A program made the translations under genes and the position numbers. A DNA stretch of 64,000 nucleotides from the NCBI GenBank assembly GCA_016916535.1, contig CP070276.1, positions 2,170,001 to 2,234,000 of the forward strand, given 5' to 3'. This document shows positions 25,531 to 44,764 of this stretch, one piece after another. Position 1 is the stretch's first letter. Each line of letters begins with the position of its first letter. The notes under the pieces were generated by a model. It was not told the DNA's origin. It worked only from the letters and a program-made list of their open reading frames with translations, and ran no database searches. This stretch comes from Dysgonomonadaceae bacterium zrk40. GTDB taxonomy: Bacteria > Bacteroidota > Bacteroidia > Bacteroidales > Dysgonomonadaceae.

Positions 25531-27363
25531 TCAGTTTTTGGTCTGTGGTGAGATACCGTTCTCGTTGAACGCCTCAATAGCGAAATGATATTCCACCCCT
25601 TTGTTAAGAGCACGTAGCTCATAGGCTGTCTTGCCGTAGATCATCACCGAATTATTCAGTTTGTCCGGTTCAATGCCCCAATAAAGCACATACCCCATCG
25701 CATCTTTTACTGGATCCCAGCTGATGTCAGCGTTTCTTGCATCGGTCTGTCGCACAGCCTTGAATGAGCTCGGTGGGGAAGGTTTTTCTCCTTTGCCGTC
25801 GCCGAAGACGCGAAACTCACCGATGCCGAGGTAGCGGTTGGGGAAATATTTGTTGGTGAAGCGGATATAACGTCCTTCTACCGGCTCTTCCAGTTCGACA
25901 TAAGCGTGGGGACGGTCCTCGTTGTTCTCCGAGTAGTCGACGGTGGTTCGCCATTCGTTCCCGTCGATCGAGGTCTCGATCACGAACTGTTGCCGCAACG
26001 TGTCGGGTTTACCGAAAATGGTGGCGTTGAAATCTTGGAAGTTCAATTGAATGGCTCTTAAGGTCATTTTACGACCCAGGTCCATTTCGAAGCGAAGGGT
26101 GTCGCTGTTGTTCTCTGCTACCCAGAGGGTGCGGATGTTCTCATCATTGATCTTCCCGATGCTGTAGTCAGCAACCTCCTGTTCCGGCAAGTATCCCTTT
26201 TCATCTTCATCCGCCACGTTTCGATGTACACCGGTCAGCACCGAGTTGCTCTTCACCGGTTTATCCTTTGAGAGCAGCATCCATCCAGTGAAGCGATGTT
26301 TGTGATCATCCACCTCTACATCGGGCAGGTAGTGGGGGTAATCGCCATAAGCAGTGTTGACATACATCTGTCCGTTCTCCTCAAAGCCGGCGGGGTACAT
26401 ACCTAACCGGCGTTCAAACTTGTAGTTAACCGAGATGGCCATGGTGGAGAAGTGCCAGTGATTCCCATGGTTATCCATTACCGCGCTGCCGTGACCCGAT
26501 CCGTTGAGAAAACCGCCCGGCTTATATGCCACCGGGTTGTAGGGGGCATAGGAGAAGGGCCCCAGGGGGTTGTCGGAAGTATACACCCCATCAGCATAGA
26601 CATTCCACTGCGTGCCTGGGGCACCATACATAAGGTAGTAGGTGCTGTCATGCTTCACCATCCAAGGTCCCTCAATGAAAGGCGCTACGTCGGAGCGGTG
26701 ATCCTGCCCGAAGCGCTCCCATCCGTGGTTGTCGGGATCGAGTTTGAAAAGATCGACCTGTTCTCCTTTCGGGATGAAGTAGTTCTCGGCATCGAGCTCC
26801 ACACCCCTGATGGGCCATCGGTTGGAAGACTCCTCAAACAGGTAAACCCTGCCATCTGTATCCACAAAGAGATTGGGGTCCTGTATTCCACCCGGTGGGT
26901 TGATTACGGCATAATTTGTTTTCCAACTTCCCAAATCTGGATTATCCGTTTCAATTATGGGACCATAACCTGAGGGATCACCATATGCGATGATTTTATC
27001 ATCATTTACTGCTGCGGCTGGAGCATTGGAGCCACTGAAATACCAGTTCTGTGGGCGAATAAATCTCCATTTGCTCATATCCTCTGATACCCAGTAGCCA
27101 TGGGAGCGTGTGACAAACAGGTAGTACTTACCCTTGAAGTTTACGACCGCCGGATCTGCTCCAGAGCGGTAGGATACATCCCTCTCTGCGCGATAGTGCG
27201 ACATGTAAGTGTAGTCGATGTCTATCGGGTTGCAGTAGGTGGACTGGCTTCTATCTGCTGTTGCCATCGGTTTGATTTCCTGCCGCTCGGTGTCGCAGGA
27301 GAGTTGTATAATCGCTATCAGTAGAATCAGGGGAATGACGAAGGTTTGTTTCATAGGTTTCAT
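25531..27363 (-). CDS. GH43 family lipoprotein with F5/8C and Fn3 modules
   Basis: 610 residues; lipoprotein signal peptide to Cys23 (IIQLSC). The N-terminal 350 residues form a five-bladed GH43 propeller with its three acids: Asp in SGADPAVV, Asp in IQDPNLF and Glu in FIEGPWMV. Next is a discoidin (F5/8 type C, CBM32-like) domain around 385-510 with RYIRFTNKYFPNRYLGIGEFRVFG, then an Fn3 module to the C-terminus. GH43 enzymes act mostly on arabinose, xylose or galactose linkages; the specificity here is unknown. It is the last PUL gene and overlaps the sulfatase stop by 4 bp. If the PUL degrades beta-1,2-glucan, this enzyme would remove side groups or serve another substrate. Confidence 0.88.
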   Translation of the reverse strand: MKPMKQTFVIPLILLIAIIQLSCDTERQEIKPMATADRSQSTYCNPIDIDYTYMSHYRAERDVSYRSGADPAVVNFKGKYYLFVTRSHGYWVSEDMSKWRFIRPQNWYFSGSNAPAAAVNDDKIIAYGDPSGYGPIIETDNPDLGSWKTNYAVINPPGGIQDPNLFVDTDGRVYLFEESSNRWPIRGVELDAENYFIPKGEQVDLFKLDPDNHGWERFGQDHRSDVAPFIEGPWMVKHDSTYYLMYGAPGTQWNVYADGVYTSDNPLGPFSYAPYNPVAYKPGGFLNGSGHGSAVMDNHGNHWHFSTMAISVNYKFERRLGMYPAGFEENGQMYVNTAYGDYPHYLPDVEVDDHKHRFTGWMLLSKDKPVKSNSVLTGVHRNVADEDEKGYLPEQEVADYSIGKINDENIRTLWVAENNSDTLRFEMDLGRKMTLRAIQLNFQDFNATIFGKPDTLRQQFVIETSIDGNEWRTTVDYSENNEDRPHAYVELEEPVEGRYIRFTNKYFPNRYLGIGEFRVFGDGKGEKPSPPSSFKAVRQTDARNADISWDPVKDAMGYVLYWGIEPDKLNNSVMIYGKTAYELRALNKGVEYHFAIEAFNENGISPQTKN

Positions 27364-28919
27364 TTTATTCCAGGTTGTAGATGGTCTGGGGGCACATCAC
27401 ACGTTGCCTGCAGTTTTTTCAGCTCATGCTTCAGTTGGCGGGTAATCTGTTCTGTGCCTTTCTCGCCGTAGAGGTTATTGATCTCAAGTGGGTCGTTCTG
27501 TTGGTCGTAGAGTTCCCACTTCTGTTCCCCGTAGAAGTGGATCAGTTTGTAGCGTGTCGTTTTTATACCGTAGTGGGCACGGACGCTGTGGAAGCCGGGG
27601 TATTCGTAGTAATGATAATAAAGAGAATTTCGCCATTCCTCAGGCGTTCGGCCTGTTTCGACCAATTTTCTGAAAGACTCACCCTGAATATCTTCCGGTA
27701 TGTCAATGCTGCAGAAGTCGAGAAGGGTGGGGGCAAAGTCGATGTTCTGTGTCAATCCCTCAACCTGTGTGCCCGGCTGGATATGCTCCTTGTACTGCAT
27801 CAGAAGGGGCATTCCGAATGACTCTTCGTACATGAATCGCTTGTCGAACCAGCCATGCTCACCCAGATAGAATCCCTGGTCACTGCTGTATATGATGAGG
27901 GTATTTTCGTCCAGTCCGGTTGCTTCCAAGTAGTCGAGTAACTGTCCCACGCTTTCATCCACCGCCCGGATGGTTGCCAGGTAATCCTGCAGGTAACGTT
28001 GATACTTCCACTGGGCAATCTCCTTTTCGGTCATCGGAATGGTATGAAAGGCATTGTTACGCTTCCGGTAGGCAGCGAAGAATCGTTGCTGCTCGCCGGG
28101 AGTCATAGTGCCCAAAAAGGCATGGGGCCAGGGGTCGTAGAGCAGGCTGTCGCTGTCAACACCGTTCACCATCTTCAGGTCGTGTCCCTCATACATGTCG
28201 CGGTAGATGTTCATCTCTTGGTGAGCCGCTGCAAAGCGTCCCTCATAATCGTCGAAATAGCTCTCGGGTAGCGGGAAGGTGACATCCTCGTAGAGGTGGT
28301 AATGTCGCTCTGCCGGCACCCAGTTGCGGTGGGGTGCCTTGTGGTTCATCATCAGGAAGAATGGTTTGTCATCATCTCTTGTCTGCAGCCATTGTTTGGT
28401 GAAGGTGGTAATCAGGTCGGTTACATAACCGGCATACTGCACAGTATCGTTCTCCGTGATGAAGTCCGGGTTGTAATATTCCCCCTGGTCGTTCAGGATC
28501 ATCCAGTGGTCGAAGCCGGTAGGTTTAGAGATAAGGTGCCACTTGCCGATAAGCGCTGTCTCGTAGCCATGTTCCTGTAGGATCTTGGGAAGCGTCTGCT
28601 GAGAACCATCGAACGCCCTGTTCCAATTGGCGAGGAAGCCGTTCTTGTGGCTGTGCTTGCCGGTTAGGATGCTGGCACGGCTGGGACCTGAGATGGAGTT
28701 GGCGCAGTAGTTGTTCCGGAAGATAGCACCATGGCGGGCAATCCGATCGATGTTGGGTGTAGGTGCCAACTCCGAGATAGGATGTCCATAGGCGCTGATA
28801 GCTTGGGTAGCATGGTCGTCGCTAAGGATGAAGATGATGTTGGGGCGGTGCTCTGTTTGCTGTGCCATTGCCGTCAAAGCCGTCAAGGCCAGTGTCCCTA
28901 TGGTGAGATTTCTCTTCAT
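27360..28919 (-). CDS. Serine-type sulfatase family enzyme
   Basis: 519 residues with a cleavable signal peptide (MKRNLTIGTL to AMAQ). The active-site signature is Ser77-Gly-Pro-Ser-Arg81 followed by ASILTG, so formylglycine would be made from serine by an anaerobic SAM-radical maturase (not in this window). The metal site begins with Asp34-Asp35-His (SDDH), and a second acidic pair lies in YSSDQGFYLGEHG. Family S1 covers sulfatases and some phosphodiester-type hydrolases, so substrate is open. It sits 19 bp after the GH3 gene and overlaps GH43 by 4 bp. It suggests a sulfated or otherwise acid-substituted glycan. Confidence 0.9.
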   Translation of the reverse strand: MKRNLTIGTLALTALTAMAQQTEHRPNIIFILSDDHATQAISAYGHPISELAPTPNIDRIARHGAIFRNNYCANSISGPSRASILTGKHSHKNGFLANWNRAFDGSQQTLPKILQEHGYETALIGKWHLISKPTGFDHWMILNDQGEYYNPDFITENDTVQYAGYVTDLITTFTKQWLQTRDDDKPFFLMMNHKAPHRNWVPAERHYHLYEDVTFPLPESYFDDYEGRFAAAHQEMNIYRDMYEGHDLKMVNGVDSDSLLYDPWPHAFLGTMTPGEQQRFFAAYRKRNNAFHTIPMTEKEIAQWKYQRYLQDYLATIRAVDESVGQLLDYLEATGLDENTLIIYSSDQGFYLGEHGWFDKRFMYEESFGMPLLMQYKEHIQPGTQVEGLTQNIDFAPTLLDFCSIDIPEDIQGESFRKLVETGRTPEEWRNSLYYHYYEYPGFHSVRAHYGIKTTRYKLIHFYGEQKWELYDQQNDPLEINNLYGEKGTEQITRQLKHELKKLQATCDVPPDHLQPGIK

Positions 28920-28938
28920 TGTTGCGTTGTTTTACTCT

Positions 28939-31233
28939 TTACTCAACTGAAAATGTAGCTTCATTCTCATTGTCATTGGAGCTCTGGGCTACCCATAACT
29001 TAAAGTTTCCTGGCTCGGTCTTTTTCTGCATATCGATGCCATAGAAGGCCAGCTCTTCGGAGCGTAGTTCAAAAGTGACCTGCTTGTGTTCTCCCGCCTT
29101 CAGCGCGATCTTCTGAAAACCTTTCAATTCCTTCACCGGACGGGTGACGCTTCCTACCAGATCGCGTACATAGAGTTGTACTACCATCTCACCATCCATT
29201 TCGCCACTGTTAAGTACGGTGGCAGTGATAGTGATCATGTCACTGTCTGCTTTCATGGAAGGTTTGTCGAGTATCAGGTCGCTGATGGCATAGCTGGTGT
29301 AACTGAGTCCATAGCCAAAGGGGTAAAGCGGGGTGATGGAGCTGTCGAGGTAGTTCGACTTGTAGTCGACCCGCTCATCGTTCAGGTCTACCGGACGGCC
29401 GGTGTTCTTGCGGTTGTAGTAGATGGGAATTTGTCCCACATTTCGGGGAAACGACATCACCAGTCGTGCCGAGGGATTGTAATCACCGGCTATTACATCA
29501 GCAATGCCGTGACCACCTTGTGTCCCTGGGAACCAAGCCTGCAAGATGGCATCCATCTCTTCATTCTCCCTCGATAGGTCGAGGGGTCGACCACTCAAAT
29601 TGACCAGTACAATCGGCTTTCCTGATTCTTTGAGGGCCTCCAGCAACTGGCGCTGTGCCTCTGGTAGGCGGATGTCGGTGCGTACAGCAGCTTCGCCAGA
29701 CCAATGGAAGCTCTCTCCCACAGCTGCAATTACGATATCAGCTCTGCGTGCAGCGGAGACCGCATCGGCAATTCTTTGGGGAGTGGTTTCATCAATCGAT
29801 GCCCCCTCCGCATAAATCAATTTTACAGCACTCTCCTTATATTTCTCGGTAAGTCCCTTGAGAATGGGAACGCTATTGTTGCGGTCTCCCAATCCGGCCC
29901 ATTCACCATTGAGGTTAATGGAATCGTTCATTAGAGGCCCCACCAAAGCAAGGGTGACCGCTTTCTCTTTCGTGATGGGAAGGATGGTATGCTCGTTCTT
30001 CAATAGCACCACCGAAGCGGCTACGGCCTTACGCGCTGTCTCCAGAAACTCAGGTGTCATGCTGTTTTGTCTTGCTCGCTCTTCATTGAGGTAACGGTAG
30101 GGGTCATCAAAGAGCCCCAGCAGGAACTTCATCTCAAGGATGCGGCGGGCAGCGTTGTCGATGGTCTGTACCGGCACATTACCCTCTTCCACCGATTTAC
30201 TGAGATACTTGATGAAGCTGGCACCTGTCATATCCATGTCGATGCCCGCATTTACCGCCAGCTCGGCAGCATGCTGTTCATCCTCCGCAAATCCGTGGAG
30301 TACCAGCTCGTTGACTCCAGTATAGTCGCTAACCACGAAGCCCGTAAAACCCCACTCACCACGCAGGATATCGGTCATTAGCCACCGGTCGCCGGTAGCG
30401 GGTACACCGTTAATCTCGTTGAACGATGCCATGAATGTGCCCACCCCTGCATTTGCAGCTGCCTCATATGGGGGCAGGTAAATGTTGCGCAGGGTGTGCT
30501 CGGAGAGCTCGGCGGTGTGGTAGTCCCTGCCTGCTTCAGCCGCACCGTAGGCTGCCAGGTGCTTGCCCGTAGCCAGTAGGGTATGCAGCTCACCCAATGC
30601 TTTTCCTTCGGCACCTCCCTGGAAGCCGATGACACGTGCTTCGGCGACCCTGCTGCCCAGGTAGGGATCTTCGCCGGCACCCTCCATTACACGGCCCCAG
30701 CGGGCATCGCGGCCGATGTCAACCATCGGTGCGAAGGTCCAGTTGATACCGTCGGAGGCTGCCTCAATGGAAGCGATTTCAGCGGTTCGGCGCATCATCT
30801 CCAGGTCCCATGAGCAGGCTTCCGCCAAGGGTATTGGGAAGATGGTCTTGTAGCCGTGGATCACATCCTGTCCGAAAAGGATGGGAATCCCCAGCCGGGT
30901 AGAGTCGACCGCAATTTGTTGCATGTTCCGAATTCCCTCCACCGAGGTGGCGTTGAAGATACTGCCTATCAACCCTTTTTCCAGGTAGGGTTTAAAGTCG
31001 TCAGACATCACCGGCCCGGTGATGGACCAGTTGGCAGAGAACTGGGTCATCTGTCCGATCTTCTCCTCCAGGGTCATTAGTTTCAACAGGGAGTCAACGC
31101 GCCTCTCCACCTCTTTGTCGCCGCTGTAACTGACCCACCTGCCGGTACCGGATCTGTTGGATGTGGGTGAACAGCTGTTGGTAAAGAGCATTAGCACTAC
31201 TATCCATACCATTGGAATTGCAATTTTATTCAT
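28939..31233 (-). CDS. GH3 beta-glucosidase, lipoprotein
   Basis: 764 residues; lipoprotein signal to Cys21 (FTNSC). The order is GH3 N-terminal barrel, (alpha/beta)6 sandwich and C-terminal Fn3-like domain (from about 660, YVRDLVGSVTRPVKELKGF). The catalytic nucleophile is the Asp in VVSDYTG, and substrate residues appear in KHLAAYGAAEAGRDY and GRDARWGRVMEGAGEDPY. BglX-like. With two GH144-type genes beside it, cleavage of beta-1,2-linked gluco-oligosaccharides (sophorose type) is likely by analogy with the Bacteroides thetaiotaomicron GH3 that accompanies a GH144; the sequence alone does not prove linkage. No -7 box is visible in the 123-bp gap upstream. Confidence 0.93.
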   Translation of the reverse strand: MNKIAIPMVWIVVLMLFTNSCSPTSNRSGTGRWVSYSGDKEVERRVDSLLKLMTLEEKIGQMTQFSANWSITGPVMSDDFKPYLEKGLIGSIFNATSVEGIRNMQQIAVDSTRLGIPILFGQDVIHGYKTIFPIPLAEACSWDLEMMRRTAEIASIEAASDGINWTFAPMVDIGRDARWGRVMEGAGEDPYLGSRVAEARVIGFQGGAEGKALGELHTLLATGKHLAAYGAAEAGRDYHTAELSEHTLRNIYLPPYEAAANAGVGTFMASFNEINGVPATGDRWLMTDILRGEWGFTGFVVSDYTGVNELVLHGFAEDEQHAAELAVNAGIDMDMTGASFIKYLSKSVEEGNVPVQTIDNAARRILEMKFLLGLFDDPYRYLNEERARQNSMTPEFLETARKAVAASVVLLKNEHTILPITKEKAVTLALVGPLMNDSINLNGEWAGLGDRNNSVPILKGLTEKYKESAVKLIYAEGASIDETTPQRIADAVSAARRADIVIAAVGESFHWSGEAAVRTDIRLPEAQRQLLEALKESGKPIVLVNLSGRPLDLSRENEEMDAILQAWFPGTQGGHGIADVIAGDYNPSARLVMSFPRNVGQIPIYYNRKNTGRPVDLNDERVDYKSNYLDSSITPLYPFGYGLSYTSYAISDLILDKPSMKADSDMITITATVLNSGEMDGEMVVQLYVRDLVGSVTRPVKELKGFQKIALKAGEHKQVTFELRSEELAFYGIDMQKKTEPGNFKLWVAQSSNDNENEATFSVE

Positions 31234-31356: not shown

Positions 31357-32724
31357 TTATTTGAATTCTAGCTTCTTTAGGCCTTCCTGAACCTCTGGTG
31401 CACCCATAAAAAGGTTCCATAGCAGTCCGCTGCGGTGGTTCTCGATCATCGGGGCGATGGTGAGTTGGTCGATGGCGAGATAGCGTTGTGGGTACCACTC
31501 ATGTTCGATGCTGAAGGCATCGTAGAAGCCATATTTTCCCCAGATGCTGTCTCCCAGTTCGAAGTAGAAATGTTTCAATGCCTTCATCGACTCTTCAGGT
31601 GTGTAAGGGAAGCTGGAGAGTGCTGCCGTGGGGGTGATCACTCCACGGTCGTTCTCCATTGGCTTGTGGCCGGTGTACCCTTCCACCGAGTAACTTGCGG
31701 TGAGTCCCCAGCAGGCATCGCTGTATCCTTTGAACCCTTTTGGGTTCTGCGCACAATAGGCATGATTGATCAGAGTATGATTGCGGTTCAGCTCCCAGTA
31801 GTCGGCATACCGGTCGCTCAGTCCCTTCGGACTGAGACCTATGTAGGAGTAGTGTGACCAGAAGAGTGGACCGCCATATACCTCAGCTCCGTTGTGTCGG
31901 AGAATCAGAGGATAGCCAAAGGCACTTTTGCTGCTTTTAATCTCACCTCCCCGTGCCCACCCGTTGTGGTATGCCGATGCCGGGATGGGATGGGTGGGTG
32001 AGGAAGCTGCCAGGATATAGGTGATGAGGCACTCGTTGTATCCCTCCAATGGGAAGTTCATCTCCCAGCCGTAGTCAGGACTCCAGTGCCAGTAGAGTAC
32101 ATCCTGCCCGTTGAGGTGCCAGTCCCATTCCATCTCCCGCCAGAGGATGTCGATCTTGGCAGCGAGTGCCTGCTCTACCGGGTTACCATTCTTGAAATAC
32201 TCACGTACGATGAGTAGTCCCTGCATCAGAAAGGCGCTCTCCACCAGGTCTCCGCCGTTGTCTTTCTTGCTGAAGGGTTTTGTCTTTCCGGTGGAACCCT
32301 CCAACCAGTGGGGCCATATCCCGTGGAAACGGTCGGCAGTAGCCAGAAAATCGGCAATTGTATGCAACCGCTCCACACCCTCTTCACGGGGAATGAATCC
32401 TCGTTCAATGCCGACAATCAGTCCTGCCAGGCCGAAACCGCTGCCGCCCGTGGTCACCACAGAAGCATCGTTTTGTGGGTAGTTGCCGTCGATGTGAATC
32501 CGTTCTCGAGCCAGTCCGGAGGTGGGCTCTGCACCTTCCCACATATAGTTGAGATGGCTGTGCTGGATGTAATTGAGCAGCTCTTCATCCGATGCGAATG
32601 TGATCGTTCGTCTCTCTTCCGGGGAGGCTGTTTTTTTTCTGTTGTTGTTGCCACAGGCAGTGAAGAAGAGAGTGGCCGTAATAATCATTGCCAGTGTCGT
32701 GTATAAACCTTTTTTCATTTGCAT
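31357..32724 (-). CDS. GH144-like (PF10091) lipoprotein, candidate endo-beta-1,2-glucanase
   Basis: 455 residues; signal peptide to Cys24 (FFTACG); start MQMKK, or M3. The whole mature region is an (alpha/alpha)6-type glucoamylase-like domain (PF10091): SGLARERIH, TTGGSGFGLAGLIVGIERGF, GGDLVESAFLMQGLL, YWHWSPDYGWEMNFPLEGYNE, the aromatic/acid block GLSDRYADYWELN, ENDRGVITPTAALSSFPYTPEES and the C-terminal ENHRSGLLW. Biochemically known members with this fold in Bacteroidetes are endo-beta-1,2-glucanases (GH144). It probably acts at the surface or in the periplasm and feeds GH3. It is a paralogue of the gene at 33820-35463, with the metallophosphoesterase between them. Confidence 0.85.
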   Translation of the reverse strand: MQMKKGLYTTLAMIITATLFFTACGNNNRKKTASPEERRTITFASDEELLNYIQHSHLNYMWEGAEPTSGLARERIHIDGNYPQNDASVVTTGGSGFGLAGLIVGIERGFIPREEGVERLHTIADFLATADRFHGIWPHWLEGSTGKTKPFSKKDNGGDLVESAFLMQGLLIVREYFKNGNPVEQALAAKIDILWREMEWDWHLNGQDVLYWHWSPDYGWEMNFPLEGYNECLITYILAASSPTHPIPASAYHNGWARGGEIKSSKSAFGYPLILRHNGAEVYGGPLFWSHYSYIGLSPKGLSDRYADYWELNRNHTLINHAYCAQNPKGFKGYSDACWGLTASYSVEGYTGHKPMENDRGVITPTAALSSFPYTPEESMKALKHFYFELGDSIWGKYGFYDAFSIEHEWYPQRYLAIDQLTIAPMIENHRSGLLWNLFMGAPEVQEGLKKLEFK

Positions 32725-32771: not shown

Positions 32772-33773
32772 TCAGTGTCTTTTCTGCCGATCGTTCAGTT
32801 TCAGATCAGTGAAAATAAAATTGTGCACCGGAGATGGATGATATTTGTCTTCCAGTGTAGAATAGGTTTTCACCTCCAGCGTTCCTTTCTTCCGGTCAAA
32901 GGTGACAATCCGCAGGTAACCGTTGCCTCCTTTTTCTGAGCCCTTCACTCCTCTTTGATAGTTTGCCAACATTTGATACACCTTGTTCCCCTGTTTGCCG
33001 TTGCTCACAAGGGTGCCTACTCCTTCGTTGAGAACATGTCCACAAAACAGGGCCACGATATTGGGATGATTAGATGCAAATTTCTCCCATATTTGTGCCC
33101 CATCGTTGACAGTACGGGTGGTGTCTTTTCCAATTCCGTAGGATTGCGGTCGCCACCAGTCACCATTGTCAAGCAGTGTACTGTCGCTGTAGAGATAGGC
33201 ATGCGTGTTGACGATTATCCATTTATCCCGATTCTCTTCAGCCACCCTGTTTGCCCAGTCGAGGACATCATCAGATGGGCCGAACTCAAGACTCATAATA
33301 AGCCACTCTTTACCTCCCGCACGAAGCGTGATGTAATGGTTGTCAATAGTCATCTGATCATGACTCCCTCCCCACTCTTTTTTCGTTTTGAAGCGGCTCA
33401 CCGGGAAGAACCTGTTGGCCAGTGAGGTGTCGTGTTGATCAGCAAATAGACCCGGTTTACTTCCCATGTCGTGGTTACCCAGTGAAAAGGTGTAAGGTAA
33501 CGCAATTTCTTCGATATCGGAAAAGTAGCGGGAGAGCAGCATCCACTCCACGGGATGGTTATCCTGTGTAAGGTCCCCCACATGAATAAGGGCATCTATC
33601 ATGTTGTGGTTGTCGGAAATCCAGTTGAACTGTGATTCCAATACTTCCGGGTAGGCTTCCAGATATGTTTGTGTATCGGGGAGCACTACAAAAAGCGCTT
33701 TGTGGGAACGGCACGAGATGAATACCCACAGTGACAACGACATTAAAATCAGATATGTAATTTTATTTTTCAA
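32772..33773 (-). CDS. Calcineurin-like metallophosphoesterase lipoprotein
   Basis: 333 residues; lipoprotein signal to Cys21 (WVFISC). Metal-binding motifs are in the expected order: LPDTQTY (D-x-x), HVGDLTQD, LGNHDMG, VNTHAYLYS and FCGHVLNEG. It is therefore an exported phosphomono- or phosphodiesterase. It lies inside the PUL between two GH144-like genes (gaps 47 and 46 bp). Removal of phosphate or phosphoglycerol groups from the glycan is a reasonable guess, but substrate cannot be read from the sequence. Confidence 0.88.
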   Translation of the reverse strand: MKNKITYLILMSLSLWVFISCRSHKALFVVLPDTQTYLEAYPEVLESQFNWISDNHNMIDALIHVGDLTQDNHPVEWMLLSRYFSDIEEIALPYTFSLGNHDMGSKPGLFADQHDTSLANRFFPVSRFKTKKEWGGSHDQMTIDNHYITLRAGGKEWLIMSLEFGPSDDVLDWANRVAEENRDKWIIVNTHAYLYSDSTLLDNGDWWRPQSYGIGKDTTRTVNDGAQIWEKFASNHPNIVALFCGHVLNEGVGTLVSNGKQGNKVYQMLANYQRGVKGSEKGGNGYLRIVTFDRKKGTLEVKTYSTLEDKYHPSPVHNFIFTDLKLNDRQKRH

Positions 33774-35535: not shown

Positions 35536-36330
35536 TTATTGATTTGACAGCCTTTCTATCTCCGATGCAGGGAGGGCCTTGTTGTAGATGCGCACATCAT
35601 CGATCAGGCTTTGGTCAGAGAGGTGTCCCCATTCATTGAAGCGGGGTGCACCCGAGCCGATCGACATGATGTCGCAACCATTCCAGCTGATACCGGTGAA
35701 GTTGGACGCAGCCACCTCCACCCCTGCCATGTAAAAGGAGGCTTTGTCGGGTGACAGCACCAGGGCGACATGAACCCATCCGGCCGTTGCCGGATCCAGG
35801 TCAGCCTTTGTCCCACCGTCTAGCCAGCTGTCTGCCGTACCATTTCCGACATTGGCTTTCACCCGCTGTTTGCCTCCCGCATTTTCACGGAAGATACGGA
35901 TGCCGGCAGTGCGGTTGTTTTGCGCATTGGCTGGTTTTCCCTCATGCGGAGGGCCGATCACCAGGATGCCTGCCCGGTCGGGGGTGCCGTTCACCTTGTA
36001 CCAGAAGGTGAAAGTCATGGAACTGCCGAGCGGTGCCGCCATGTTGGCCACGTCAAAGGTGAGGTAGCTGTTGACAGCGCCGGCATAAGCCTTGCCGCTC
36101 TTGCCGTCTGTAAAGGTGGGTGTGCCCACTACAGCGGCTTCCATCAGGCTTTGGTAATCCTCCAGATCCTCATCGAAAGAGAGGTAGAACATCTGACCGT
36201 CCGCACCGATGGGAGGTGGCGTGGGCTGTTCGGGGAAGTCGAATGGGGGGTTCTGTCCCAGGTCCTGAAAGCAGGAGGTGAAGATGACCCCTGTCATCAT
36301 CAGAATTAGGAGATATGCTGTTTTCTTCAT
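35536..36330 (-). CDS. LamG-type surface glycan-binding lipoprotein (candidate)
   Basis: 264 residues from the ATG at 36328-36330; signal peptide to Cys20 (VIFTSC). After a Pro-rich linker (PEQPTPPPIG) the protein is one concanavalin/LamG jelly roll: FYLSFDEDLEDY, SMTFTFWYKVNG, GWVHVALVLSPDKASFYMAG and SLIDDVRIYNKALPASEIERL, the usual end. It directly follows susD (13-bp gap), where PULs commonly encode surface glycan-binding proteins. No catalytic signature is seen. The longer open frame to 36543 overlaps susD and is rejected; an ATG at 36339 is an alternative start three residues earlier. Confidence 0.85.
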   Translation of the reverse strand: MKKTAYLLILMMTGVIFTSCFQDLGQNPPFDFPEQPTPPPIGADGQMFYLSFDEDLEDYQSLMEAAVVGTPTFTDGKSGKAYAGAVNSYLTFDVANMAAPLGSSMTFTFWYKVNGTPDRAGILVIGPPHEGKPANAQNNRTAGIRIFRENAGGKQRVKANVGNGTADSWLDGGTKADLDPATAGWVHVALVLSPDKASFYMAGVEVAASNFTGISWNGCDIMSIGSGAPRFNEWGHLSDQSLIDDVRIYNKALPASEIERLSNQ

Positions 36331-36343: not shown

Positions 36344-37885
36344 TTAATAGTTAGGATTCTGTACCAGTACACCGTTTGATTTGTCAACCTCGTTCTGTGG
36401 CAAGGGAAGCAGTTCATGTTTCTCCTGATAACCGGTCTTGCCGGCAGCATGCAGCACCTCTTGGGCGATGCCCCAGCGTACCAGGTCGTAGAATCGGTCG
36501 AACTCCATGCCCAGCTCCACCCGACGCTCGTGGCGGATGGCATCGCGCATCTCTGCCTGGTTAGTTGTGGTCACTTTGGGTAGTAGGGATGCATTTGTGC
36601 CGCGCGCTCTCGCCCTGACCATTTCAAGATGATCTGACGCTTCTCCGGTACTTCCCAGTTCATTGGCAGCTTCGGCCGCCATCAGCACCACGTCGGCGTA
36701 ACGTATCAGCCGGATGTTATACCAGTACCCTCCCTTTGTATAGGTGGCCCGCAGGCTGGGGTTGGTATAGGCTTTCTTGTTGTAGTACTTGTTGATCACA
36801 TCGGCGTTGGAGATAGGTTTCTCACCGTAGGGTTGATTCGCCGGGATGGAAGAGGGATCACCTCCCGTCTTGATAAAATAGAGCAGTGTCTCGTTTCTTC
36901 GGGGGTCTCCCTCCTCAAAAGCGTCTGCCAGAAACTCCGTAGGGGTGTGCCACCCCCATCCAAGATTCCATTCGCCAGCACCTCTTACACCCTGCACCTG
37001 TGCAAACTGGCTGCCGATGTCGTTGGAGCCGGGTTGAGAGGCAGTGGCGGTACATTGCAGTTCGAATACAGACTCGCTGCTGTTCTCTCCCGTCTCGCGG
37101 AAGATTTGGTTGTAGGGGGTATTGAGGTTGTAGAGTCCAGATTGGATCACCTCCATCGCTGCGGTGTGCATGTTGTTCCAATCGTTTCTCATCATGTAGG
37201 TGCGCGCATGAAGTGCCCTTGCGGCACCCCAGGTGAGGCGGCCGGTGTATACTGGTGGCCAGCTCTGCGGCAGATGGGCCTCTGCTGTCTCCAGGTCAGC
37301 GTCGATCAGTGCATAGATTTCAGCGGCGGGTGATTTGGGGATGTTGGCCTCTTCGGCATTCACAATTCGGAAATCGATCTTGGGTACATCGCCGAAGGCT
37401 CGTACCAGGTTGAAGAAGGCAAACGCACGGAAGAAGTGGGCTTCCGATCGGTTAATCAGGTCACCCTCAGAGAGGACTCCCTTTTCTGCTTCACTCATTG
37501 CAATATCGTCGAGGATCTTGTTGGCCAGGATGATGATCTCGTAGTTAGCAGTCCAGTAGGAGCCGATCAGGCCGTTGGTGGCGATGTATTCGAAGTCGTC
37601 GAACATCCTGCCGTGTGCGGCACCGTCGGAGGCGGTGCTCCCTTTTTCGGCATCCTCGGAGCGGAAGGAGTGGATGGCGAGGGCAGTGGTACCAGAAGTG
37701 ACGTGGTAACCGCGTAGTTTTGCATAGAGGGTGAAGATGTCGGACTGGAAAGAACCGCCGCTACCCTCATCGCCTTCTACCCATTCGCCCTGTGGCTTTT
37801 GGTCCAGGAGGTCGGAACAGCCACCAAGGGCTAGAGAGTAAATTGCTGCAAAGATGAGCCAAATATATATCTTGTTCAGTTTCAT
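36344..37885 (-). CDS. SusD/RagB-family glycan-binding lipoprotein
   Basis: 513 residues; lipoprotein to Cys23 (ALGGCSDLLD). The N-terminal SusD-like domain shows GSYWTANYEIIILANKIL and NRSEAHFFRAFAFFNLVRAFGDVP, the latter the core TPR segment of the family. The C-terminal RagB part has YNIRLIRYADVVLMAAEAANELG, the segment EMRDAIRHERRVELGMEFDRFYDLVRWG and LPLPQNEVD near the end. It binds glycan on the outer membrane and caps the SusC transporter encoded 12 bp upstream. Confidence 0.97.
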   Translation of the reverse strand: MKLNKIYIWLIFAAIYSLALGGCSDLLDQKPQGEWVEGDEGSGGSFQSDIFTLYAKLRGYHVTSGTTALAIHSFRSEDAEKGSTASDGAAHGRMFDDFEYIATNGLIGSYWTANYEIIILANKILDDIAMSEAEKGVLSEGDLINRSEAHFFRAFAFFNLVRAFGDVPKIDFRIVNAEEANIPKSPAAEIYALIDADLETAEAHLPQSWPPVYTGRLTWGAARALHARTYMMRNDWNNMHTAAMEVIQSGLYNLNTPYNQIFRETGENSSESVFELQCTATASQPGSNDIGSQFAQVQGVRGAGEWNLGWGWHTPTEFLADAFEEGDPRRNETLLYFIKTGGDPSSIPANQPYGEKPISNADVINKYYNKKAYTNPSLRATYTKGGYWYNIRLIRYADVVLMAAEAANELGSTGEASDHLEMVRARARGTNASLLPKVTTTNQAEMRDAIRHERRVELGMEFDRFYDLVRWGIAQEVLHAAGKTGYQEKHELLPLPQNEVDKSNGVLVQNPNY

Positions 37886-37897: not shown

Positions 37898-40800
37898 TTA
37901 AAAAGTTAAGTTCAGACCAAAGGTATAGATCATCGGCATGGGATAGGTGCCGCCATCGATTCCGAAAGCGAGTGCAGAGCCGCCAATCTCGGGGGTATAG
38001 CCTGTATTGCGTGTCCAGGTCTTCAGATTCTGCACGTTGGCGAAGAGCCGTAGCGACTTGAGGTATACCCTCTGCAATAATTCAGTTTCAAAGGTGTAGC
38101 CCAGCTGAACGTTGCGGATGCGGAAGAAACTGCCATCCTCGATGAAGTAGTTGGAGTTGATCAGGTTGATGGAGCGGGAAGGGTTGAGTATTGGCTCCCA
38201 GTTGGAGGTTCCTTCGCCGTTCCAGCGATCCATACGATTGGTCAGGTAGTTGAGCTGTGCGTAGGTGGGGTCATCCCATGTGCGGTAGATTTCATTTCCG
38301 TAGACCCCCATCATCTCGACATCGAAGTCGAAGTTGTGGTAGTCCAGGTTGAGGCTGAGGCCATAGGAGAAGTCGGGTGTCGGGTTGCCGATCATGGTGC
38401 GGTCCTCCTGTGTGATGGCACCATCTCTGTTTATATCCTCGAACTTGAGGTCGCCCGGTGCGACACTCCCCACGCTGTTGGGGTAGTAGGTCTTCACATC
38501 CTCCCTGTTCTGGTAGACACCAGCCACTTTGTATCCGAAGAAGTGTCCCACGGGATAACCTTCCAGTGAACGGGATATGCCGCCCGAGGCGAAGATGGCA
38601 TCCTCTGGACCACGGCCGAGTGAGAGCACCTTGTTATCAATGGTGGTGAAGTTGCCTGCAAGCGAGTAGGAAAGGCCGTCGCTACCAATCTGGTCGTTCC
38701 AGGTGGCGGAGAGTTCGAGACCCCTGTTTCGTATCTCACCCAGGTTCTCCAATGAGTTCTTGGCTCCGGAGAAACCGGCCAGCATCACGATGATGTCGCG
38801 AGTGGTTTTGTTGTAGAAAACCGGTTCGATCCGCAGACGGTTGTCGAGAAGGTTGACCTCGACCCCAGCCTCCCAGGCGTATGTCTTCTCCCAATTGAGA
38901 TCCTGGGGCAGATACTGCACCGAGTAGCCGGTGATGATGTTGTCGCCGAAGACGGCACTGCCGGAGCTTTGCAGGCGGGGGTAGGTGGGGTAGTTATAGC
39001 CGCCGGTGTTCTGACTGCCCAGCACACCCCAGGAACCCTTGAACTTCAGGTAGTCGATCAGTGCCAGACCTTTCATGAAATCTTCTTCCGAGGCAACCCA
39101 GCCGGCACCGAAGGAGTAGAAGTCATCCCAGGTGTTGCCCACCGAACGAAAGACTGAAGCACCATCTCGCCGGTAGGAGGCGTTGAAGAGGTATCGGTTC
39201 TGAAAGTTGTAGAGCCCCCTCAATAAGTAGGACATGGTGAACCGCTTGTACTGACTCCCACTGTTTGACATCGATTTGTTCGAAAGGGAAGAGATCCACC
39301 ACTTGTCGGTGTCATCGCTTGGAACTGAGAAGATGATCTCTTCGATATTCTGGCTGCGCGAACCGCCCAGAGAGGAGTATTCGGTGAAGTTGGTTGTAAC
39401 ACCGGCGGTGGCGGTCAGGTTGTGATAACCAAAGGAGTTGTTGTAGGTGAGGATGTAGTCACTCTGTGCCACGGTCCGGGTCGATTTCGACTGTGATACC
39501 GACTCACTCGTGGTGAGGTTTTCCGCCCCCTCTATGTCGGGGTTGTAGACCGTGATGATGGGGCTGAGGCTGCGGGATTCGTTCACTGCATAGTCGAGCG
39601 AGAAGGTGCTCTTGAAGCTGAAATGTTCCAGGAAGTCCACCTCCCCGTAGATGTTTCCCGCCGCACGGTGGTTCTGTGCTTGGGCATGGTTGGCCCTAGC
39701 CTCCACCTCGATCAGGGGATTCCAGACCTGTGCCCTTTGAAAATCGGGAAGAGTGTGAATAAGACCTTCAGTTGCGTCATAAAGCGGAGCGATGGGAGCT
39801 GCCCTGATGGCACCGCTCACTCCCTTGGCGTCGGTGGGGTTGGTCCTGGATGCGTTCACCTGATAGCCGAAGCGTAGTGCTTCACTTACGCTGTACTCGC
39901 TGCTCAGGTTGAGTGTCAACCGCGAGTATTTCTCATATTTAATGTTACCCTCCTCGGAAGTGTAGCCGATACCGAGGTAGAAGCGGTTTTTCTCACCTGA
40001 ACCGGTGATGCTGACATTGTTATTGGTGAGGAATCCCTGCTGGAAGATCACATCCTGCCAGTTGGTGTCTGCTTGCCAGTCACTGTAATCGAAGCTGGAT
40101 AGTCCCTGGTTAACACGCTGTTCGTCATACAACTCGCGAAACTGAGCCGCGTTGGCCATCGGCATCATGTGGGTCACTTCCTTGAAGCCGAGTGAACTGT
40201 TGAAGTTGACCACTGTCTGGCCCCGTTTAGCCCTTTTCGTGTTGACGATGATCACCCCGTTGGCTCCCCGGACACCGAAAATAGCAAGCGAGGAGGGGTC
40301 TTTCAGGATCTCCATTGACTCTATATCAGCAGGGTTGAGGTAGTTGATGTTGTCGGAGAAGAGTCCGTCCACCACGTAGAGCGGGGAGTAACCGTTGATG
40401 GAGTTGGTACCGCGGATACGGACTTCCGGGTCCTGTCCGGCACGGCCACTGTTAACGATTTGAACACCGGCCACCTTACCCTGCACGGAAGATAGGAGGT
40501 TGGTGGTTGGCCTGTTGGCGATCTCCTCGGCACTTACGCTGACGATAGATCCGGTCAGGTCACGTTTCTTGGCACTGCCGTAACCGATCACCACCACCTC
40601 TTCCAGTGCCTGCACATCTTCGTTCATCACCACGTTGATGGTAGTGCGGCCGTTGAGGGGTTCTTCTACCGAGAGCATACCGATGTAACTGTACTGAATG
40701 GTTGCGTTGGAAGGCACGTTCTCAAGGGTGTAGTTCCCGTCATAATCGGTCACGGTACCGATTGTAGTGCCTTTTACCAATACGGTGACACCGATTGCCG

Positions 40801-40912
40801 GATCACCGGTTGCTCCTTCCGTCACCATACCGGTAACCGTTACGGTCTGTTGTGCGGACAACAGGAAAGTGAACAACAGCAGATGCAGAATGATTGCGAT
40901 TTTCAATTTCAT
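37898..40912 (-). CDS. SusC/RagA-family TonB-dependent transporter
   Basis: 1004 residues. Signal peptide (to about 21), a carboxypeptidase-regulatory-like domain (about 22-105; GMVTEGATGDPAIGVTVLVKG), the SusC pattern VVVIGYGSAKKRDLTGSI, a TonB plug (through IVNSGRAGQDPEVRIRGTN and YVVDGL), then a long beta barrel ending in a phenylalanine (GLNLTF). It imports oligosaccharides across the outer membrane with TonB energy. First gene of the PUL operon proper; 206 bp separate it from the regulator gene. No TAnnTTTG box is obvious, consistent with activator-dependent transcription, and two palindromes lie upstream. Confidence 0.97.
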   Translation of the reverse strand: MKLKIAIILHLLLFTFLLSAQQTVTVTGMVTEGATGDPAIGVTVLVKGTTIGTVTDYDGNYTLENVPSNATIQYSYIGMLSVEEPLNGRTTINVVMNEDVQALEEVVVIGYGSAKKRDLTGSIVSVSAEEIANRPTTNLLSSVQGKVAGVQIVNSGRAGQDPEVRIRGTNSINGYSPLYVVDGLFSDNINYLNPADIESMEILKDPSSLAIFGVRGANGVIIVNTKRAKRGQTVVNFNSSLGFKEVTHMMPMANAAQFRELYDEQRVNQGLSSFDYSDWQADTNWQDVIFQQGFLTNNNVSITGSGEKNRFYLGIGYTSEEGNIKYEKYSRLTLNLSSEYSVSEALRFGYQVNASRTNPTDAKGVSGAIRAAPIAPLYDATEGLIHTLPDFQRAQVWNPLIEVEARANHAQAQNHRAAGNIYGEVDFLEHFSFKSTFSLDYAVNESRSLSPIITVYNPDIEGAENLTTSESVSQSKSTRTVAQSDYILTYNNSFGYHNLTATAGVTTNFTEYSSLGGSRSQNIEEIIFSVPSDDTDKWWISSLSNKSMSNSGSQYKRFTMSYLLRGLYNFQNRYLFNASYRRDGASVFRSVGNTWDDFYSFGAGWVASEEDFMKGLALIDYLKFKGSWGVLGSQNTGGYNYPTYPRLQSSGSAVFGDNIITGYSVQYLPQDLNWEKTYAWEAGVEVNLLDNRLRIEPVFYNKTTRDIIVMLAGFSGAKNSLENLGEIRNRGLELSATWNDQIGSDGLSYSLAGNFTTIDNKVLSLGRGPEDAIFASGGISRSLEGYPVGHFFGYKVAGVYQNREDVKTYYPNSVGSVAPGDLKFEDINRDGAITQEDRTMIGNPTPDFSYGLSLNLDYHNFDFDVEMMGVYGNEIYRTWDDPTYAQLNYLTNRMDRWNGEGTSNWEPILNPSRSINLINSNYFIEDGSFFRIRNVQLGYTFETELLQRVYLKSLRLFANVQNLKTWTRNTGYTPEIGGSALAFGIDGGTYPMPMIYTFGLNLTF

Positions 40913-41118: not shown

Positions 41119-44004
41119 TTATTGGAATTTAATCATGAATTCCACCAGATTGTCAGCTTCTGAAAGGGTTAGTTTCTTGCGTAACCGATAGCGGGCAGCT
41201 TCCACACCCCGGATGGAAATGTTCAACATCTTCCCGATTTCCTTTGAAGAGTAGTTCAGTCTAAGTAGGGCACACAGTTTTAGATCGGAGGGTGTGAGCA
41301 AAGGATATCGTTCCTTCAGTTTGCGGAAGAAGTTCTCGTGAATCAGGTCGAAGGTATCCTGAAACTGGTTCCATTCATCTTCATCGGAGAGGCCATTGTT
41401 GATCATGGACAACAGTTCGTTCCCTTCGTTACGTTTGAGTTTGCCGTTCAGTATGAGAGATTGAATGGTGCTGCGCATATTTTTCAGAAACTCGGTATGG
41501 TTGATGATCATCATGGTGGCGCTAGCCAACTCCTTACTCTTGTGTGTCAGTTCAGCCTCAAGTTTTTCATTGCGTAACCGGGTGATCTCTCTCTCCTGTT
41601 TCTCCAGCTGTGCCAGTCGACGGTTCTCCTGTTCGACAAAGAGCTGGTTTTTCTTCTTTATGATACGGCGTACGCGGTTGCCGATGAGTAGTCCGCTTGC
41701 CAGAATGATCAACAGGATATAGAGAAGTGTGGCCCACCATGTTTTGTACCATGGGTTTTTTATACGGAATGCAAAGGTAACCTCTGACAACACTTCTTCC
41801 CTATCATCCAGTACCCTCGCTCTGAGTCTATAATCATTGGGAGGTAGATTGTTGTAGGTCACAGCAAGATCTCCGGCTACGGGAACCCAACGATTGTCAT
41901 ATCCCTCAAGGATGGATTCCACCAGCAGGGGTTTACGGGTGAATTCAGGAAAGACAAGCTGAAAGGAGAGATTGTTGTGTCGGTAGGCGATCACCTCTTT
42001 AGTCTTTGTGTTCAGATCTTGGTTCTCTCTCCATTCGCGGTCATGGCTCATGGCAGAAGCAATTCTCAGATTGCTGATAGACAACGCTCCTGTTTGCTGA
42101 CCTATAAGGTATTTTCCGATGCCGCCATTCAGAGAAAAATATGAAACTGTATCATTCACGATGAAAATGTCTGCCCGTCCCTCATTGGGAGGGTTGTTGA
42201 GGATTCCGTAAGGGATTCTGTCCCTGAGGCGAAAGTGATCAGCGGTGTATTCCACCAGCGCATACTCTTTGTTGCGGATAAACCAGAATAAATGATCATT
42301 CTGGGGAACGATGCGATAGGTGTCGGCAAATTCCGGAAGATCTTGGTTCAGAGGTTCAAAGGGGATGATTTTACGGCTGATGTCATCGTAGGTATAAAAT
42401 AGCTTTCCATCTGCAAAGAGTACTCTTCCTTTCAATTTCATCACTTTTACGGGACGATATGGCTCATTCAGGGCGGTATCGAACGTGAGGAAGTTCTCAA
42501 TTTCTGTAACCTTATCCAGATCGGAGGATAGCTTCAATCGATAAACACCTTTGTACATGTGGCCGGCCCAGATGTTGCCGGTATGATCAATTTCGATGTT
42601 ACGGATCAGGTCGGAAAAACCTTTCACCTGGTGACTGAACTGCCAATTGCCAGATGGGTCCTGGTCATATACATAAAGTGCTGTGTAGGACGATTGAAGC
42701 AAGTGGTTTTCCCCGTTCAGGATTATCTGTTTCATATCCAATCCACCGGTACGTGCTTGCGGAATATCAACTAAACGTTCCTTTTCCAGCAACGATGTGC
42801 CTAGGTTGTGTCCCACAAATAACTGACGGTTGAATTGTTCAATAAACCACGACTGGGTGTCAAAATGGGCATAACGTCTGAAGTTCCTTTCCTCTTTGGA
42901 GTAAGTGTAGATTCCCTGGTTTGTTGCCAAAAATAGTGAGTGATCGTTCTCGAGGATATCCTCCACCAATCCAATCTGGATGTCGGAAGGCTCAAAAAAG
43001 GAGTAAGGGGAGTGGGAAAGAAAATGGGCTATGCCGTTGTCCAGCGCTGCCCATATATTTTGTTCTCGATCGCTGAAAAGTGAGAGCACTGTGTTGTTGT
43101 GCAGTCCATTGTTACGATTGATGTGCCATCGCTCTTCACCCTTGTGGTTTAATGCAAAAAGACCGTCGTTCAGGGTCCCTATCACGATCAGTGAATCACC
43201 ATTCAGGGTTGCTCGGTTGACCACTCCCTCCCTCAGCCGTTTGTCAGCTGTTGTTGGCCATGGCTGGAGTGTTTCAAGGTCGTTGCCGAGATGGAAGATC
43301 CCGTTTTTTTCCGTTACCAGCAGCTGCTCTTCACCCAGAGGAAGGACTGCCACAACATTGTCGTTATTGAGTTGCTTGCGGGTGAACAGTTCCCTGAAAT
43401 GTTCTCCGTCAAACAGGGTGAAGTGGTTGTTGATCAACTGTGCGAACAGGTTGTCCCCAACCGGAAAAAAATAGAGAACGCCGGGATAGGGTTTATGGGT
43501 TTTGATGGAGTTTTCTTCCAGGACAAAGAATGCAGAAAATGATTGAAAGTAGATCTTCCCCCTGTGTTGACAGATTTTCCATATCTCGTCGTTGTGGAAT
43601 TGATAATCCTTCACCCGTTTCCTGAGTGAGTGGTAGATGAGCCGGTTGTAGCGATCCCGTTCAAAATATCCAAATTCCTCGAACGATCCCACATAGATGC
43701 GATTGGGGTGTTGATTAAAATCGATAAATATCGATTTCACAGCCAGATTGTTGGGGAGCTTGTGGAGGTTCCAGTTTACACCGTCAAAGCTGAGCAGTCC
43801 GTTGTTGTTACCGAAATAGATTACACCCTCCTGATCCTGTGCGATGGACCAGTTTTGATTCCCTGCCTTATAGTGCGCAGTGGTGTAGTTGTATACAGGA
43901 GGAATGAATGGTATTTCGAGCGAATAACCCTTCCATGGGAAGAGTGAGCATATGAGGGTGAAAAAGATCCCGGAGAAATTGACGATTGGCATTTTTTTTC
44001 TCAT
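41119..44004 (-). CDS. Membrane-spanning one-component PUL regulator (propeller, Y_Y_Y, LuxR HTH)
   Basis: 961 residues from the ATG at 44002-44004. A signal-like hydrophobic start is followed by a periplasmic Reg_prop-type beta-propeller (repeats such as SIAQDQEGVIYFGNNNGL and NIWAALDNGIAHF), a Y_Y_Y domain (about 670-750; NNLPPNDYRLRARVLD), one membrane segment (about 757-777), a charged coiled coil (about 780-850) and a LuxR/GerE-type HTH in the last 60 residues (LTPSDLKLCALLRL, SSKEIGKMLNISIRGVEAARYRLRKK). No kinase or receiver domain is present, so it is not a hybrid two-component system; DNA binding would occur at the membrane. It lies directly upstream of susC in the same direction. 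The frame extends to 44076 but would overlap the preceding gene. Confidence 0.92.
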   Translation of the reverse strand: MRKKMPIVNFSGIFFTLICSLFPWKGYSLEIPFIPPVYNYTTAHYKAGNQNWSIAQDQEGVIYFGNNNGLLSFDGVNWNLHKLPNNLAVKSIFIDFNQHPNRIYVGSFEEFGYFERDRYNRLIYHSLRKRVKDYQFHNDEIWKICQHRGKIYFQSFSAFFVLEENSIKTHKPYPGVLYFFPVGDNLFAQLINNHFTLFDGEHFRELFTRKQLNNDNVVAVLPLGEEQLLVTEKNGIFHLGNDLETLQPWPTTADKRLREGVVNRATLNGDSLIVIGTLNDGLFALNHKGEERWHINRNNGLHNNTVLSLFSDREQNIWAALDNGIAHFLSHSPYSFFEPSDIQIGLVEDILENDHSLFLATNQGIYTYSKEERNFRRYAHFDTQSWFIEQFNRQLFVGHNLGTSLLEKERLVDIPQARTGGLDMKQIILNGENHLLQSSYTALYVYDQDPSGNWQFSHQVKGFSDLIRNIEIDHTGNIWAGHMYKGVYRLKLSSDLDKVTEIENFLTFDTALNEPYRPVKVMKLKGRVLFADGKLFYTYDDISRKIIPFEPLNQDLPEFADTYRIVPQNDHLFWFIRNKEYALVEYTADHFRLRDRIPYGILNNPPNEGRADIFIVNDTVSYFSLNGGIGKYLIGQQTGALSISNLRIASAMSHDREWRENQDLNTKTKEVIAYRHNNLSFQLVFPEFTRKPLLVESILEGYDNRWVPVAGDLAVTYNNLPPNDYRLRARVLDDREEVLSEVTFAFRIKNPWYKTWWATLLYILLIILASGLLIGNRVRRIIKKKNQLFVEQENRRLAQLEKQEREITRLRNEKLEAELTHKSKELASATMMIINHTEFLKNMRSTIQSLILNGKLKRNEGNELLSMINNGLSDEDEWNQFQDTFDLIHENFFRKLKERYPLLTPSDLKLCALLRLNYSSKEIGKMLNISIRGVEAARYRLRKKLTLSEADNLVEFMIKFQ

Positions 44005-44032
44005 AAAGTCGGGAATGGGTTTGTAGAATGGG

Positions 44033-44764
44033 TCAACTCTGCTTTTTTTCCAGCAACTGTTCGATCTCTGCTTCACTGAGCACTTTCACATTGGTGAAGA
44101 TAAACCTGGTGTCGAGGAAGTTGCCGTACTGATTGCACTCCTGCACTGCAGCAGTCAAGTTTGTATGGATATCTCTTTCAAATGATAAGAGCATGAGGAT
44201 GGAGAAATAGTTGTCTTTGATCTCAAATTTCTCAATCACCACTTCAGCCTGCTGTAGCTGAAATGTGAATTCTCTTTCCACAATCTCCCTCTGCAGGGAG
44301 GTGAGTGTCTCTTTGTTGTGGGTTGTGAAGAGTGAAAAGAAACGTAGCTTCTTATCCAGTCCCCCCAGTCCGGAGGAGATATAAACCTGCTGTTTCCCGG
44401 AGAGATCGGAACTCAATATGATTCGGCTGCTCACCAGCGCCATGGCCGACCAGTGTGCCAGTTCGGGCTCGGCAGGACTACTGTGATAGGTCTCAATGGC
44501 ACGGTATGCTCCTACGTCTGGGATGGATGCCAACAGTGTCAGACATCTTTTTTTCCGTTCTGCCGGTATGTCGGGTGTGAAGAGGATAGCGATCTCATCA
44601 TCCCGTACGAAAGGCTTGTTTTCCTCGCGTAGCTGGTCGAAATAACGGAAATAGGCCATCTGTTCCTCAATGGGTACAAGCTCCTCCAGGATATGAAAAG
44701 AGTCTATACCCTGTTCGTTGAGGGACTGTCTCAACTTGGCCAAAAGATCTTCCTGACTGCTCAT
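44033..44764 (-). CDS. Conserved-looking cytoplasmic protein of unknown function
   Basis: 243 residues, no signal peptide or membrane segment, Glu/Leu-rich and probably mostly helical with some strands. I do not recognise a family. It lies 28 bp upstream of the PUL regulator in the same direction, and no promoter is seen between them, so the two are probably co-transcribed. A TATCTTTG -7 box at 44769-44776 ends only 4 nt before the ATG, which would make the mRNA leaderless or nearly so; the next in-frame ATG is about 34 codons later and would cut into a well-behaved coding region. Confidence 0.75.
   Translation of the reverse strand: MSSQEDLLAKLRQSLNEQGIDSFHILEELVPIEEQMAYFRYFDQLREENKPFVRDDEIAILFTPDIPAERKKRCLTLLASIPDVGAYRAIETYHSSPAEPELAHWSAMALVSSRIILSSDLSGKQQVYISSGLGGLDKKLRFFSLFTTHNKETLTSLQREIVEREFTFQLQQAEVVIEKFEIKDNYFSILMLLSFERDIHTNLTAAVQECNQYGNFLDTRFIFTNVKVLSEAEIEQLLEKKQS

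Follow-up and report, generated by a model that had tools for sequence, protein, structure and literature searches.

A 64,000-nucleotide stretch of the genome of Dysgonomonadaceae bacterium zrk40 (contig CP070276.1, positions 2,170,001 to 2,234,000; hereafter the window) carries a polysaccharide utilization locus (PUL) that probably serves the breakdown of a beta-1,2-glucan bearing charged side groups. On the minus strand, between 44004 and 25531, the locus comprises, in order, a regulator, susC, susD, a LamG-domain lipoprotein, a first GH144 enzyme (GH144a), a metallophosphoesterase (MPE), a second GH144 enzyme (GH144b), GH3, a sulfatase-fold enzyme and a GH43 with F5/8C and fn3 modules. It has the arrangement by which Bacteroidota PULs are recognized, with susC and susD adjacent and accompanied by carbohydrate-active enzymes and a regulator, and the genes between 25531 and 40912 are operon-like in their spacing, with neighbours overlapping by 4 bp at the closest and lying 123 bp apart at the widest. 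An earlier interpretation made from the letters alone (the sequence-only reading) had placed such a locus at 25531 to 44764. All the genes that it named were recovered over Pfam or NCBIfam cut-offs, although the LamG lipoprotein was missing from its list, and its interval holds as far as 44004. The genome (3.47 Mb, three contigs) contains two PF10091 matches, both in this locus. The source organism is a Proteiniphilum-like bacterium, and a metagenome-assembled genome of Proteiniphilum (Bacteroidales) shares this locus, its proteins being 94-99% identical to those of the window and its GH43 cut by the contig end.

Both PF10091 proteins (E-values 2.8e-82 and 6.5e-75) are predicted to be GH144 endo-beta-1,2-glucanases, an assignment that stands because both match 5gzh, named an endo-beta-1,2-glucanase, along the catalytic domain (GH144b 3.3e-193, GH144a 5.0e-137) and keep its catalytic residues. 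Counted on the alignments, GH144b has E231 and GH144a has E327 at the position of the general-acid glutamate E211 (5gzh numbering); the acidic positions D135/D139/E142 correspond to D155/D159/E162 and D250/D254/E257, respectively. The available passages on the founding GH144 enzyme report that the change E211Q drastically reduces its activity. The best solved match of GH144a is 4gl3, a 'putative glucoamylase' (4.3e-160). The N-termini of the two enzymes, read by eye, are CGSSDE in GH144a and CGNN in GH144b; under the lipoprotein N-terminus rule, GH144a would probably be a surface lipoprotein and GH144b probably periplasmic. Solved relatives of the GH3 include the periplasmic beta-glucosidase 5xxl, which we take to be the Bacteroides enzyme BT_3567, and Lin1840. 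The latter is described, in the passages available, as a beta-glucosidase preferring beta-1,2-gluco-oligosaccharides, but the GH3 by itself proves little because other solved relatives score higher than Lin1840. Both the GH144 placement and the beta-1,2-glucan backbone put forward in the sequence-only reading are thus supported.

We surveyed 247 genomes of the order and 395 of the phylum, each count including the window's own genome. PF10091 was found at 1e-10 in 62 of the 247; MPE matches occurred in 13 of the 247 at 1e-10 and in 8 of the 395 at 1e-30, and GH43 matches in 21 of the 247 at 1e-40 and in 72 of the 395 at 1e-100. Neighbourhoods of up to 20 kb were fetched round most GH144 places of the order. 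Of the 72 GH43 places in the phylum other than the window's own, 36 were treated likewise, 16 of them ranking near the top of the list and 20 scattered further down. Neighbouring genes were detected by similarity to window genes and a few representatives, a procedure that other decoration-removing families would escape. The tally of 93 GH144 loci that resulted leaves out the window, its near-copy L027 and the overlapping L118 and L119 (L numbers denote loci, G numbers genomes); it includes both L062 and L123, which overlap in one genome, and it counts L127, whose sulfatase relative at 27% identity falls below the 30% bar, as lacking a sulfatase.

The full cassette of two GH144, GH3, GH43, MPE and sulfatase recurs in L017 and L028, reordered and at 43-71% identity, while L018 has it without the sulfatase and L121 without the sulfatase and GH43. 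An MPE lies near a sulfatase and a GH43 in the window, L017 and L028; an Exo_endo_phos protein, belonging to an unrelated family, lies near a sulfatase and a GH43 in L126, L128, L129, L130, L131 and L132, all without an MPE, and the two phosphoesterases occur together in none of the 93 loci. A phosphoesterase accompanies GH144 in 7 of 10 loci with a sulfatase versus 4 of 83 without (Fisher 3.7e-6, 93 loci). Esterase relatives are present as well [Abhydrolase_2 in 10 of the 93 loci (at least 30% identity), GDSL in 5 and BD-FAE in 3], and their recurrence would suit succinyl or acetyl groups on such glucans. These changing combinations of sulfatase, phosphoesterase and esterase with GH144, GH3 and GH43 are what would be expected if the natural glucan has several acidic groups, differing from producer to producer. 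The proposal of a substituted beta-1,2-glucan, with phosphoesterase and sulfatase acting in the same pathway, has accordingly gained ground since it was first made from the window.

The sulfatase-fold enzyme is of the serine type, as first read, with the motif S77-G-P-S-R; the C/S-x-P-S-R motif and the SGSH_C domain are both present, and the N-terminus, read by eye, looks like a plain signal sequence. Serine-type sulfatases presumably need an anSME maturase, and the genome holds a sulfatase-maturase gene (TIGR03942, 492.7 bits, cut-off 349.45), a model that also exceeds its cut-off in 2 of 14 control genomes. In sister loci, an FGE-type gene (by Pfam) in L131 and its relative in L125 (47%) favour a formylglycine enzyme. 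The solved structures 5g2v and 7p24, which we take to be of subfamily S1_11, match the enzyme almost end to end. Residues D359, R361 and H444, which fit the S1_11 recognition triad, are invariant across the 11 PUL-linked sulfatase rows and the 20 others alike. In S1_11 enzymes, according to the review passages available, O4 is recognized by an Asp/Arg pair and O3 by a His. On the sulfatase tree, from which the L125 sulfatase (35% identity) was left out, 9 of the 11 sulfatases linked to GH144 PULs form one clade (support 100/97). Sulfatases likely joined GH144 loci more than once, because those of L051 and L017 fall outside this clade; with at least three label changes on the tree, a common origin of all the GH144-linked sulfatases is not supported. 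Among solved structures, the clade is closest to 9s03, labelled a 'putative sulfatase' (907.6 bits versus 673.1 for 7p24), on which our literature search found no paper.

The MPE, described at the outset as exported, has a lipoprotein-like N-terminus by eye, consistent with export. Its predicted structure (predicted local distance difference test, pLDDT, 69.8, which is fair) has a calcineurin-like fold, and its motifs read PDTQ/GD/GNHD/NTH/GHVL. The class III motifs of the GpdQ type, DxH and GHxH, are absent from it; all 16 of its other homologs have DxQ and none of the 16 has GHxH. We rejected an assignment as phosphodiesterase from the fold: purple acid phosphatases rank level with GpdQ and Rv0805 among the matches, and the model does not separate a monoesterase from a diesterase. 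Seven MPE relatives of at least 45% identity lie outside the genus: four in GH144 loci (L017, L018, L028 and L121), two not, and the seventh in L029, whose stretch is too short (5.7 kb) to judge GH144 linkage. In L120 (G513, 6638-15477) a close MPE relative belongs to a susCD locus that also holds a fucose isomerase, two DUF2961 genes and a GH43/GH32-like gene, a setting that we take to be D-arabinan-like.

The GH43 had been left unexplained in the sequence-only reading, which allowed that it could mean a mixed substrate. In the GH43 tree (61 rows), a clade of 51 includes the one in the window (support 100/99), and GH144 is in the fetched stretch for 36 of the 51, or 37 counting L132, where GH144 lies 11 kb off; for the 10 rows outside the clade it is in none. 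Some stretches without GH144 are short (4.8 to 8.5 kb), so that absence means little there (L109, L112, L113 and L116 outside the clade, L133 and L138 inside). An earlier GH43 tree had labelled L117 as GH144-linked despite there being no GH144 in its stretch, and the 61-row tree labels it correctly. Within the clade, a subclade of 13 rows that holds the window's GH43 has a sulfatase neighbour in 10 (including the window and the distant sulfatase of L125), whereas none of the other 38 rows of the clade has one. The catalytic acids D70, D162 and E231 are kept in all 61 rows. A profile from 10 of the 51 clade rows found 4qqs as the closest solved match (8.1e-19, distant) and solved relatives named xylosidases, xylanases and arabinofuranosidases; NCBIfam gave weak matches only, with an arabinosidase model in 2 of the 10 rows (best 8.6e-4). 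The linkage cut by the GH43 cannot be named because its best solved relative is distant, and a structure model from two sequences (pLDDT 35.9) was not used. Judged from its gene neighbourhoods, this clade, which lacks close solved relatives, appears to belong to the GH144 pathway across Bacteroidota.

To read the GH43 as nothing but an indication of a mixed substrate would thus be too simple, and we rejected arabinoxylan or pectin as the main substrate as the clade tracks GH144; the substrate may still be branched. We consider it unlikely that the substrate is a sulfated mixed polysaccharide, algal or other, made of beta-1,2-glucosyl parts with pentosyl or galactosyl branches cut by the GH43, and with others cut by GH2 or GH97 in sister loci. 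The names of the solved GH43 relatives would fit such a polymer, as would GH2 genes in L017, L051, L126 and L132, a GH97 gene in L126, and the sulfatase in the GH144 cluster of the marine Maribacter (PMC8072126, as far as the passages available describe it). By Pfam, however, the operon lacks polysaccharide lyases, and GH144 is its sole endo-glycosidase family (although GH43 itself can be endo). Also against a mixed polymer, the same GH43 clade occurs with SOGP and GH35, families that the passages of PMC8861115 connect with plain beta-1,2-gluco-oligosaccharides. SOGP and GH35 adjoin GH144 and the GH43 clade in L065, L071 and L103, with an MFS gene too in L065 and L071, and these loci appear from their gene content to be a phosphorolytic version of the beta-1,2-glucan pathway.

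Several observations weigh against a decorated glucan as the substrate. Sulfatase, phosphoesterase and GH43 are all missing from 54 of the 93 GH144 loci. In the order survey alone (70 loci), the association of phosphoesterase with sulfatase is not significant (1 of 2 loci with a sulfatase versus 3 of 68 without, p = 0.11); the other 23 of the 93 loci were retrieved through similarity to GH43, MPE or sulfatase, so that the strength of the association owes to an enriched sample, in which related loci are moreover not independent. L067 and L083 have an Exo_endo_phos relative and no sulfatase. MPE relatives also occur outside GH144 loci, as in L120, with no GH144 in its stretch, and in L019, where a partial relative lies beside a rhamnose isomerase gene with no GH144 nearby. 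Among the 51 clade GH43s, 14 have no GH144 in or just past the stretch; GH144 occurs elsewhere in 12 of these genomes and is absent from the other two (G436 and G493). For 7 of the 14, one to three neighbours each were scanned and were mostly housekeeping genes. Given the loci that lack all three extras, the MPE relatives outside GH144 loci and the figures of the order survey, the locus could be an ordinary beta-1,2-glucan PUL of GH144, GH3 and GH43, with the MPE and sulfatase serving another, co-regulated glycan. We regard this as quite improbable, because L017 and L028 keep MPE, sulfatase and GH43 together with GH144 and GH3 despite reordering and sequence divergence, and because an unrelated phosphoesterase takes the place of the MPE in L126 and L128-L132.

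Returning to a beta-1,2-glucan with charged side groups, we start from the observed gene content, family membership, conserved catalytic residues and co-occurrence across genomes, and infer from them cell locations, an order of steps and the substrates beyond the backbone. The LamG protein, a probable surface glycan-binding protein with relatives in other GH144 loci, and SusD would hold the glucan at the cell surface, where GH144a would cut it for SusC to import the pieces. In the periplasm, the MPE would take off a phosphate-linked group, and the sulfatase-fold enzyme would free O6 of a glucose from a sulfate or some other ester with a single charge; the GH43 would remove a side group or a link other than beta-1,2, GH144b would shorten the chain, and GH3 would then free glucose.

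Many Gram-negative bacteria produce beta-1,2-glucans, which are important in symbiosis and infection according to the literature passages available, and one candidate source is the osmoregulated periplasmic glucans (OPGs) of Proteobacteria. That the substrate is specifically a phosphoglycerol-bearing Proteobacterial OPG, with the sulfatase acting on a group not reported so far, is a real possibility, though one that we lean against. The passages describe beta-1,2 backbones in several groups, with phosphoglycerol and esters, and phosphoesterases and esterases recur in sister loci. Against it, the OPG groups that these passages name are phosphoglycerol, phosphoethanolamine, succinyl and acetyl, with no sulfate among them, and the string 'sulfat' occurs 0 times in the text of PMC10514313. 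Our search, which covered few subscription journals, found no paper joining periplasmic glucans and polysaccharide utilization loci, which is neutral for this reading. Bacteroidota that encode giant PF10091 proteins are another candidate source. G133, G080, G222, G138 and G030, as well as G372, G307 and G260, have open frames of about 1,900-3,100 codons that match PF10091 weakly; we take this to be the size of cyclic beta-1,2-glucan synthases. Bacteroidota may make such glucans themselves and be a further source of substrate.

A more tentative idea, which we think doubtful but worth stating, is that a single decoration, a glucose 6-O-phosphodiester in beta-1,2-glucan, is the target of both the sulfatase-fold enzyme and the MPE (or the Exo_endo_phos protein in its place). 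A pocket of the S1_11 type would read O3 and O4, both left free by the beta-1,2 linkage; a formylglycine enzyme would open the singly charged phosphodiester, and the metallo-enzyme would then clear the freed phosphate compound. Phosphonate monoester hydrolases, which share the sulfatase fold, open singly charged phosphodiesters. If the idea is true, the pair would be dedicated to stripping OPG-like glucans and the GH43 clade would be a third, unassigned activity in the same pathway. If both enzymes instead keep their textbook chemistry, the glucan would carry sulfate and phosphate, a combination not met in the literature passages available.

Table 1. Features of the PUL and its surroundings in the window (gene calls are Pfam or NCBIfam matches, unless said otherwise)
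Feature	Coordinates	Strand	Basis or remark
Propeller-type transcription regulator	41119..44004	-	Reg_prop over cut-off; start MRKKMPIV
SusC-like TonB-dependent transporter	37898..40912	-	TIGR04056, 806 bits
SusD-like lipoprotein	36344..37885	-	Pfam
LamG-domain lipoprotein	35536..36330	-	Laminin_G_3; start MKKTAYLL
GH144a, N-terminal Big_5-like stretch (just under Pfam cut-off)	33820..35463	-	PF10091
Metallophosphoesterase (MPE)	32772..33773	-	PF00149
GH144b	31357..32724	-	PF10091; closest to 5gzk/5gzh
GH3 beta-glucosidase, BglX type	28939..31233	-	777 bits, cut-off 666
S1 sulfatase-fold enzyme, serine type, S1_11-like	27360..28919	-	Sulfatase and SGSH_C
GH43 with F5/8C and fn3	25531..27363	-	PF04616; D70/D162/E231
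243-aa protein	44033..44764		No Pfam match
Menaquinone-pattern cluster	19242..24991		AMP-binding, MenC-type, enoyl-CoA hydratase type, TPP enzyme, chorismate-binding
GH31 with PA14 insert	50739..53603	+	Adjoins a nucleoside-symporter-family gene

The regulator also has Y_Y_Y and DUF6377 matches below cut-off and weak C-terminal matches of the LuxR response-regulator type. Nothing links the 243-aa protein to the PUL, and its gene probably lies outside it. Directly downstream of the PUL, the Pfam matches fit menaquinone synthesis; this cluster is unrelated to the PUL. The GH31 gene is on the opposite strand to the PUL, and a GH31 of about 28% identity to it adjoins the GH43 clade in L042, L065 and L117.

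Compared with known systems, the MPE of the window differs from GpdQ, Rv0805 and Lmo2642 in having DxQ and GHVL rather than DxH and GHxH. The sulfatase resembles the S1_11 N-acetylglucosamine-6-sulfatases 5g2v and 7p24 over nearly its full length and in the residues that fit the D/R/H triad, but it belongs to a separate clade and has a short insertion near 46 as well as C72 and M370. A cluster of GH144, GH3, susCD and sulfatase genes is already published for Maribacter: that of M. dokdonensis 62-1 (PMC8072126) likewise has two GH144, one GH3, susCD and sulfatase genes. The passages available of that account name no phosphoesterase or GH43 and propose no decorated substrate, whereas the window has MPE and GH43 in a PUL of the Bacteroidales type; we claim no priority for the links of GH144 with GH43 and with phosphoesterases. 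The beta-1,2-glucan-degrading enzymes in the passages available are described on plain glucan or its oligosaccharides, and the sulfatases, phosphoesterases, esterases and GH43s beside GH144 are candidates for acting on the decorations of natural beta-1,2-glucans. The clusters of B. thetaiotaomicron and Ignavibacterium (PMC8861115, from the parts available) combine GH144 with GH3 or with SOGP and GH35 for beta-1,2-glucan, as here; 'GH43' occurs 0 times in that text, whereas the locus of the window has one, and the GH43 clade to which it belongs would gain a pathway assignment.

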